Origin: Crocinitomicaceae bacterium
GTDB taxonomy: Bacteria; Bacteroidota; Bacteroidia; Flavobacteriales_D; Crocinitomicaceae
Length of the DNA: 64,000 nucleotides
Assembly: GCA_029254025.1 (NCBI GenBank)
Contig: JAQWYK010000012.1
Location: 1-64,000, forward strand
Reading direction: 5' to 3'
Below the pieces are notes generated by a model, which saw only the letters and a list, made by a program, of their open reading frames with translations, ran no database searches and was not told the origin of the DNA. Shown in pieces: positions 58,107 to 59,628 of the stretch (position 1 is its first letter; each line of letters opens with the position of its first letter). A program made the translations under genes and the position numbers.

Positions 58107-58301
58107 ATGCCACAAGGAACAGTTAAGTTTTTCAACAATGACAAAGGTTTTGGATTCATTGTACAAGAGGAAAACGGAAGCGATGTATTCGTACACGCAA
58201 ATGGATTAATCGACGAAATTCGTGAAAACGATAAAGTTGAATTCGAAGTAGAACAAGGAAGAAAAGGATTAAATGCCGTTAACGTTAAAGTTATTGGTTA
58301 A
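58107..58301 (+). CDS. Cold-shock domain protein
   Basis: A 64-aa single-domain cold-shock protein with both RNA-binding motifs (KGFGFI and VFVHA) and the usual start GTVKFFNNDKGFGF. It binds single-stranded nucleic acids. Its leader is short here (about 20 bases), unlike the long thermo-sensing leader of E. coli cspA. A strong terminator follows. Confidence 0.95.
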   Translation: MPQGTVKFFNNDKGFGFIVQEENGSDVFVHANGLIDEIRENDKVEFEVEQGRKGLNAVNVKVIG

Positions 58302-58323
58302 TAGTTGATTTTGAAGTTCGAAA

Positions 58324-58353
58324 AGCCATTCGCCTAGCGAATGGCTTTTTTTT
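58324..58353 (+). terminator. Rho-independent terminator of the cold-shock gene
   Basis: Ten-base perfect stem AGCCATTCGC/GCGAATGGCT with the loop CTA and eight Ts. Confidence 0.9.
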
Positions 58354-58375: not shown

Positions 58376-58383
58376 TAAATTTG
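58376..58383 (+). promoter_or_regulatory. -7 element before the Trp leader
   Basis: TAAATTTG matches TAnnTTTG, 22 bases before the leader-peptide start. No clear -33 box. Confidence 0.4.
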
Positions 58384-58405
58384 TTCTTAGATTAGCACCA
58401 TGTTA

Positions 58406-58459
58406 ATGAATACTAATAACAAGATGAACTGGTGGCGCTCAACAATGATTGTTGGATAG
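58406..58459 (+). CDS. Trp-rich leader peptide (attenuation)
   Basis: A 17-aa frame, MNTNNKMNWWRSTMIVG, with tandem Trp codons at 58430-58435 and stop TAG at 58457-58459 (an in-frame ATG two codons earlier, 58400, would add two residues). It lies between a promoter element and an attenuator-type terminator upstream of DAHP synthase/chorismate mutase. Trp is rare and two in a row in a peptide this short is the mark of a tryptophan-sensing leader. Confidence 0.72.
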   Translation: MNTNNKMNWWRSTMIVG

Positions 58460-58520
58460 GGCGCATAAAGATATAATGGTATAAATCCCATTCGCTATGT
58501 GCGAATGGGATTTTTTTTTT
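58440..58520 (+). promoter_or_regulatory. Transcription attenuator for the aromatic-pathway gene
   Basis: CAACAA-TGA-TTGTTG (58440-58454, right after the Trp codons) can form the pause hairpin. A terminator stem AAATCCCATTCGC/GCGAATGGGATTT (58483-58513, loop TATGT) with ten Ts follows, 34 bases before the ATG at 58555. GGAT (58454-58457) can pair with ATCC (58485-58488) as part of an antiterminator when the ribosome stalls on Trp codons; that pairing is weak and inferred. Confidence 0.7.
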
Positions 58521-58554
58521 GAAACAAGACATAGGTTAAAAGTGTTAATAGAAT

Positions 58555-59628
58555 ATGGATTTAATAAAGGAAATAAAAAAGTCAAGGCCTTTTGTAATCG
58601 CTGGTCCTTGCAGTGCAGAAACTGAAGAACAAGTCCACACTGTGCTAGATGAAATCGCTCGAGATGGAAAAACAGCGCTGCTGAGAGCAGGAATAAGGAA
58701 ACCAAGAACCCGACCTAATTCTTTTGAAGGTCTCGGAGAATTGGCTTTGCCGTGGTTGTTGGAAGCAGGAAAGAAAAATAATTTACCTGTTACGACAGAA
58801 GTGGCCAATGCAAAGCATGTTGAGATTGCACTTAAATACGGAGTTGATGTATTGTGGATAGGAGCAAGAACTACAGTAAATCCTTTTGCAATTCAAGAGA
58901 TTGCAGATGCATTGAAAGGAGCAAAGGTACCAGTCATTGTCAAAAACCCTGTGAACCCGGATCTTATGTTGTGGGTGGGTGCGTTTGAACGTCTTCAGCA
59001 GGCTGGAATTACGCAATTAGCCGCACTTCATAGAGGGTTTTCCATTTATAAACACGCTAAATATAGAAACATTCCTAATTGGGAGATTCCAATCGCTTTA
59101 CGAGAAGAAATGCCAGAAATTCCGTTGCTGTGTGATCCTAGTCATATTTCAGGAAAAAGAGAAGGGCTTCTTGAAGTTGCCCAAAAAGCAATGGATTTAA
59201 ATTATGATGGCTTGATGATTGAAACGCATCCAAATCCAGATGGTGCTTGGTCTGATCCAGCGCAACAAGTAACAGCAAATGGGCTAAATGAGTTACTCTC
59301 AAAAATCATTCTACGAAAAGAAGAACTTTCTGAAGAGGAATTAAGTTATATCGTTGTCATGCGCGAGAAAATAGCAGGGTTAGACGATCGAATTTTTAGT
59401 TTGCTTTCAGAGCGAATGAAAATGGCAGAGGAAGTTGGTTTGTACAAGCGAGAGAACGACATCACCATTCTGCAGCAGGAACATTGGAGAAACGTAATTG
59501 CAAACAGGTTAGAACAAGCGGAAAATTTGCACCTTACAAATCAATTTGTACGTTCTATAATGGATGCCATTCATCAAGAATCAATTAGGCACCAAACGAA
59601 GGTTATGAACCCCTCCTTAAAACGCTGA
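58555..59628 (+). CDS. Bifunctional DAHP synthase / chorismate mutase
   Basis: A 357-aa fusion. The N-terminal KDO8P-like DAHP synthase (about 1-260) has VIAGPCSAE, GIRKPRTRPNSFEG, VKNPVNPD and CDPSHISGKREG. The C-terminal AroQ-type chorismate mutase (about 265-350) has the Arg/Lys/Glu helices (MREKIAGLDDRIFSLLSERM). It starts the shikimate pathway and also makes prephenate, a common Bacteroidota arrangement. Expression is probably set by the Trp attenuator upstream, though the CM domain leads to Phe/Tyr. Confidence 0.94.
   Translation: MDLIKEIKKSRPFVIAGPCSAETEEQVHTVLDEIARDGKTALLRAGIRKPRTRPNSFEGLGELALPWLLEAGKKNNLPVTTEVANAKHVEIALKYGVDVLWIGARTTVNPFAIQEIADALKGAKVPVIVKNPVNPDLMLWVGAFERLQQAGITQLAALHRGFSIYKHAKYRNIPNWEIPIALREEMPEIPLLCDPSHISGKREGLLEVAQKAMDLNYDGLMIETHPNPDGAWSDPAQQVTANGLNELLSKIILRKEELSEEELSYIVVMREKIAGLDDRIFSLLSERMKMAEEVGLYKRENDITILQQEHWRNVIANRLEQAENLHLTNQFVRSIMDAIHQESIRHQTKVMNPSLKR

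Follow-up and report, generated by a model that had tools for sequence, protein, structure and literature searches.

Why should a gene for the shared first step of the aromatic pathway heed Trp, when the chorismate mutase fused to its enzyme feeds Phe and Tyr? The question is raised by a leader in the window (the whole stretch of 64,000 nucleotides analyzed here), for which the original prediction had proposed classical Trp attenuation while finding the sensed amino acid odd. The gene behind the terminator is, as that prediction had it, a fusion of DAHP synthase and chorismate mutase (DAHPS/CM): the ORF 58555-59628 matches the Pfam families DAHP_synth_1 (5e-33) and CM_2 (4.5e-20). It forms a single-gene unit, and the next downstream gene lies on the opposite strand. 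Judging from the sequence, we consider it highly probable that the leader is a classical ribosome-mediated attenuator, which senses charged tRNA-Trp and controls a DAHPS/CM isozyme dedicated to Trp. The features are collected in Table 1.

Table 1. Features of the DAHPS/CM leader and gene (positions in the window).
Feature	Position	Strand	Basis
Putative Bacteroidota -7 promoter box TAAATTTG	58376-58383	+	fits TAnnTTTG
Leader peptide ORF MLMNTNNKMNWWRSTMIVG	58400-58459	+	predicted from sequence; stop TAG 58457-58459
Tandem Trp codons TGG TGG (putative sensor)	58430-58435	+	sequence
1:2 (pause/protector) hairpin	arms 58435-58440 and 58459-58464, span 58435-58464	+	RNAfold
2:3 antiterminator	58461-58502; GCGCAUA 58461-58467 with UAUGUGC 58496-58502	+	folding
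3:4 intrinsic terminator with T10 tract	58483-58520; stem 58483-58513, loop 58496-58500	+	folding
DAHP synthase (type I)/chorismate mutase (AroQ) fusion, 357 aa	58555-59628	+	Pfam
His310 codon, column of E. coli CM Arg51	59482-59484	+	alignment

The predicted leader ORF is short and carries tandem codons for the regulated amino acid, as the leader of an attenuator should. It can start at ATG 58400 or at a second ATG (58406); the latter gives 17 aa and corresponds to the 17-residue frame with tandem Trp codons that was first noticed. Upstream of the ORF lies a sequence that fits TAnnTTTG, the -7 consensus for flavobacteria (PMC9723704). Such a box is present within 50 nt upstream of 14 of the 28 family leaders, against 1.4 expected. 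We saw no clear -33 element at the box in the window.

Folding of the leader RNA gave three alternative pairings. The 1:2 hairpin is the "pause hairpin" of the original prediction and contains an additional inner stem. Its region 1 begins within the second Trp codon, so that a ribosome stalled there would block region 1. The 2:3 antiterminator has a further inner helix (58476-58479/58488-58491) and a calculated energy of -12.3 kcal/mol with the sequence to about 58443 hidden by a Trp-stalled ribosome. The terminator, which stands between the leader ORF and the structural gene, has a stem of 13 pairs (-20.1 kcal/mol), and the ten Ts that had been noted are found at its end (58511-58520). Positions 58461-58464 are common to the 1:2 and 2:3 pairings, and 58488-58502 to the 2:3 and 3:4 pairings. 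The antiterminator is exclusive with the terminator and with the hairpin that overlaps the sensor, an arrangement supported across the set of loci. The 132-nt leader folds at z = -4.0 relative to shuffled sequences. At this locus alone, 23% of spacer shuffles give an equally good antiterminator, so the support for this pairing comes from the set of loci.

These elements suggest the following mechanism. When Trp is ample, the ribosome would pass both Trp codons and reach the stop codon. Region 2 would then be covered by the ribosome or paired with region 1, the terminator would form, and transcription would stop before DAHPS/CM. When Trp is short, the ribosome would stall on the TGG pair and mask region 1. 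Region 2 (GCGCAUA) would be free to pair with the loop and upper stem of the terminator, and this antiterminator pairing would allow DAHPS/CM to be transcribed. That the leader responds to Trp, and how strongly, is what we infer from this architecture.

We read the upstream regions of DAHPS/CM orthologues gathered from 59 relatives, 240 family genomes and 80 named contigs. To count as a leader, a short ORF had to contain W(x)W and end 55-135 nt before the DAHPS/CM gene. Of the 145 distinct upstream regions read from the Crocinitomicaceae-like family, 32 contain such a leader, a count uncorrected for the relatedness of the genomes; dinucleotide shuffling gives a mean of 0.41 and a maximum of 2. 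Outside the family, none of 54 upstream regions has a W(x)W leader before DAHPS/CM. In the window's own genus, a gene that is 95% identical (L015/L044) has the leader MLRNTNSRMNWWRSTMFVG and an identical terminator. Other Trp leaders of the family are MFKTNNTKWWSLNALSE, MITMKNNWWYNYLQSE, MTIKNTRFFWWWNNLN, MRKHTTYTWFWNDMKN, MITNNAYNWLWNDLT and MNQTTQHIVFLNWWTE. The NWWR motif of the original prediction was seen in the window's own genus only; the general conserved motif is W(x)W.

The pairing is conserved as well. In 29 of 29 analyzable family leaders, the spacer that separates the Trp codons from the terminator can pair over at least 6 bp with the 5' half of the latter. When spacers were swapped between loci, none of 20,000 permutations matched as well, which indicates that the spacer-terminator pairing is specific to each locus. 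The 1:2 pairing gave a modest p = 0.0175 in the same cross-locus swap test. Trp leaders, terminators and alternative pairings thus recur across the family; together with the ORF, the TGG pair and the three pairings of the window, this conservation upholds the classical attenuation architecture that was first proposed.

Many relatives have no leader, often where DAHPS/CM follows a gene that is presumably tsaB. This arrangement, with DAHPS/CM directly after the tsaB-like gene and without an attenuator, was seen in L016, L017, L026, L027, L035, L047, L052 and others. Regions that have no Trp leader, the tsaB-linked loci among them, were scanned for a displaced leader to as much as 1.7 kb upstream if the locus reached that far; the only leaders found lay close to the gene. 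Some relatives have leaders that combine Phe/Tyr with Trp codons (for example, FFWWW and FYWFW). The presence of Phe/Tyr residues in the leaders of Trp copies appears to track the presence of prephenate dehydratase (PDT; p = 0.008, uncorrected for kinship), which is suggestive only.

The choice of Trp becomes understandable from the aromatic pathway of the genome, a 2.7-Mb draft of 50 contigs with an estimated completeness of 99.9%. Among named relatives, the nearest is a MAG of the Crocinitomicaceae, order Flavobacteriales (L044, protein 95% identical). Neither PDT (PF00800) nor prephenate dehydrogenase (PDH, PF02153) was found in the 50 contigs. Of 14 control genomes, at least 13 gave matches to both families in the same searches; the absence is homology-based and refers to a draft, and non-homologous enzymes would escape it. 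Across the 240 genomes of the family, PDT was detected in 29 and PDH above the cut-off in 3. The genome does have chorismate synthase and a complete trpEGDCFBA operon, whose own leader MNRTIQNTNWWWLSTRWCDLAQ (WWW) is followed by a terminator. Because PDT and PDH are absent and trpEGDCFBA is complete, Trp should be the only aromatic amino acid that the organism makes, judging by its gene content. With such an output, a Trp sensor on the first enzyme is to be expected: Trp would be sensed because the route from shikimate to Trp is kept and the enzymes from prephenate to Phe and Tyr are lost. This explains the apparent oddness of Trp sensing as read from the tandem TGG.

The DAHPS/CM gene holds the sole CM_2 domain of the genome. 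DAHP_synth_1 occurs in this gene and in one other, which encodes a DAHP synthase of 345 aa without a CM domain (L007 3110-4147, contig C46) and adjoins a gene for a KdsC-like phosphatase. We saw no canonical KDO-8-phosphate synthase among the genes of the DAHP_synth_1 family, which number two in this genome. Of the AroQ active-site residues R11, R28, K39, R51, S84 and Q88 (E. coli numbering), five of six are kept in the window's protein, and the R51 column holds His310, with the motif TILQQEHW in place of TILQxxRW. PMC5526877 counts Arg51 of E. coli CM among the active-site residues. In the clade of the window's copy, this column is His in most rows and sometimes Leu, Gln or Trp; Arg occurs in one row (L047). 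It is Arg in the DAHPS/CM copies linked to pheA or tyrA.

In most of the PDT-containing relatives that we examined, there is an additional DAHPS/CM copy, located in an operon with pheA or with an asnA-like gene and pheA. The leaders of the pheA-linked operons, such as MKINNTYFFFNNNYMT, MIINNNFFFFFNHFKF and MVQNFNFFFFSFFHKRD, are also followed by terminators. They have on average 0.27 Trp per leader versus 2.09 in the Trp-leader class, and 5.4 Phe plus Tyr versus 1.7. In L259, L266 and L269, the operon follows a Phe-rich leader and consists of a presumably AsnA-like (aspartate-ammonia ligase) gene, pheA and DAHPS/CM. A quick protein tree, in which some forks are open, separates most pheA-linked copies from window-like copies and places the window's copy in a clade of 65 rows (99% SH-aLRT). 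A few family members outside this clade have the Arg and a Trp leader together (L043, for example), so that the Trp leader may predate the loss of the Arg.

The Trp copies are also often tied to the trp genes by position. In about 20 relatives' loci, trpE is transcribed divergently from DAHPS/CM and lies upstream of it at a distance of a few hundred bases, and 22 of 28 leader loci have a second Trp-rich leader on the opposite strand (for example, MNVKVQNTNWWWHSTNCWCAWC). Back-to-back Trp attenuators of trpE and DAHPS/CM share one short intergenic region in L030, L142, L128, L133 and others. In the window's genome, trpE and DAHPS/CM are not neighbors, and a Trp leader precedes each. Taken jointly, the data suggest a history in which we place about as much belief as doubt. 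Crocinitomicaceae DAHPS/CM would comprise two isozymes whose control is divided by leader peptides: one with pheA and Phe/Tyr codons, the other back-to-back with the trp operon and with Trp codons. The Trp copy would then have lost the catalytic mutase Arg, and in many genomes without the Phe/Tyr branch the domain would persist in a structural or allosteric role, no longer acting as a mutase. In which direction evolution ran and what became of the mutase activity are points that we infer.

Other explanations of the leader have to be weighed against Trp attenuation. The leader could be coupled to the ribosome and yet act mainly as a general sensor of translation rate or growth, or as a constitutive partial terminator, with no specificity for Trp. 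That it has just two Trp codons, and that some relatives mix Phe/Tyr with Trp, would fit such a sensor. Against it, the leaders keep Trp although the residues around it change, and the pheA-linked paralogues have Phe/Tyr instead; a constitutive terminator would need neither a conserved leader ORF nor an antiterminator. We regard this as improbable, although it is the strongest of the competing readings. It is very unlikely that the terminator merely ends the transcript of the upstream csp gene (58107-58301, same strand) and that the small ORF is incidental. The arms shared by the two terminators (CCATTCGC/GCGAATGG) would speak for a link with csp, but csp has its own terminator at 58320-58350, and the putative promoter box and the leader ORF come after it. 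Moreover, relatives in which the neighbor is trpE and not csp show the same kind of leader and terminator. The arms of the terminators at 58320-58350 and 58483-58513 are identical, as if one had been copied from the other.

Slighter still is the chance that the leader peptide acts in trans, like peTrpL of Sinorhizobium, besides or instead of attenuation in cis. A trans role of a trp leader peptide is described for another phylum (PMC7298713). Here the peptide shows little conservation from genus to genus beyond its aromatic core, which does not point to a conserved role in trans. Attenuation by a ribosome that senses charged tRNA-Trp remains by far the preferred explanation.

In this reading, control of the shared first step follows the remaining output of the pathway: with the Phe/Tyr branch gone, the gene would heed Trp alone. 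The paralogues with Phe/Tyr and Trp leaders offer a clean natural series on how the specificity of an attenuator changes after gene duplication. The exchange of Arg for His in genomes without visible use of prephenate makes a purely regulatory persistence of the fused chorismate mutase testable.

The leader of the E. coli trp operon, trpL (Rfam Trp_leader), has tandem Trp codons, 1:2, 2:3 and 3:4 hairpins and a U tract. The window leader has the same attenuation logic as this proteobacterial leader; it differs in its target gene, in the lack of an Rfam match and in its putative promoter box of the Bacteroidota type. In E. coli, the TrpR repressor controls the gene of the Trp-sensitive DAHP synthase, aroH, which is not known to be regulated by attenuation. 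A leader-ORF attenuator directly before a DAHP synthase gene has been predicted in Acholeplasma, where the uORFC-13-1 motif lies upstream of aroF (PMC8632094). Unlike the window leader, it is Phe-sensing according to its authors and belongs to another phylum, and a CM fusion is unmentioned in that paper. Within the phylum, a putative attenuator precedes pheA>hisHb>aroAI-beta-aroQ>tyrA of Bacteroides thetaiotaomicron (PMC1173090, Table 7), an operon that includes an orthologous DAHPS/CM fusion. It would govern a whole Phe/Tyr operon, however, and the related operons in our set have leaders rich in Phe/Tyr, not Trp. The DAH7PS-CM fusions of Prevotella nigrescens and Porphyromonas gingivalis are active bifunctional enzymes (PMC12202928). 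The window's protein resembles them in its N-terminal DAHPS, C-terminal CM and length, but it has His in the column of the active-site Arg, in a genome without the downstream prephenate enzymes.

The mechanism is a known one, on a target for which we found no precedent: in the open-access literature searched, we met no account of a DAHPS/CM gene preceded by a Trp attenuator. Rfam searches of the leader, at the gathering threshold and at a relaxed E-value, returned only chance-level leader matches (PyrR and Thr_leader, below threshold). A genome-wide pattern of TGGTGG followed by T7 occurs at 14 places, versus 6 matches in the control; those recognized as a leader ORF with a terminator are the window and trpE leaders, the others having been viewed less closely. 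The nearest described element is the Bacteroid-trp RNA (RF01692), the leader of Bacteroidota trp operons (PMC2864571), with a case in F. psychrophilum (PMC6414381). Even with E values up to 10 allowed, the RF01692 covariance model gave no match at the window leader, and we accordingly do not file this leader as a member. The trpE leader of the same genome scores 26.5 bits, below the threshold of 49 bits, and is probably a divergent relative of the Bacteroid-trp RNA. RF01692 matches in L030 and L142, considered as DAHPS leaders, were rejected; both over-threshold matches are divergent trpE leaders. The window element and the Bacteroid-trp RNA share a short ORF with tandem Trp codons, alternative hairpins, a terminator and the phylum. 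They differ in the gene that follows, which is trpE for the Bacteroid-trp RNA and DAHPS/CM here.
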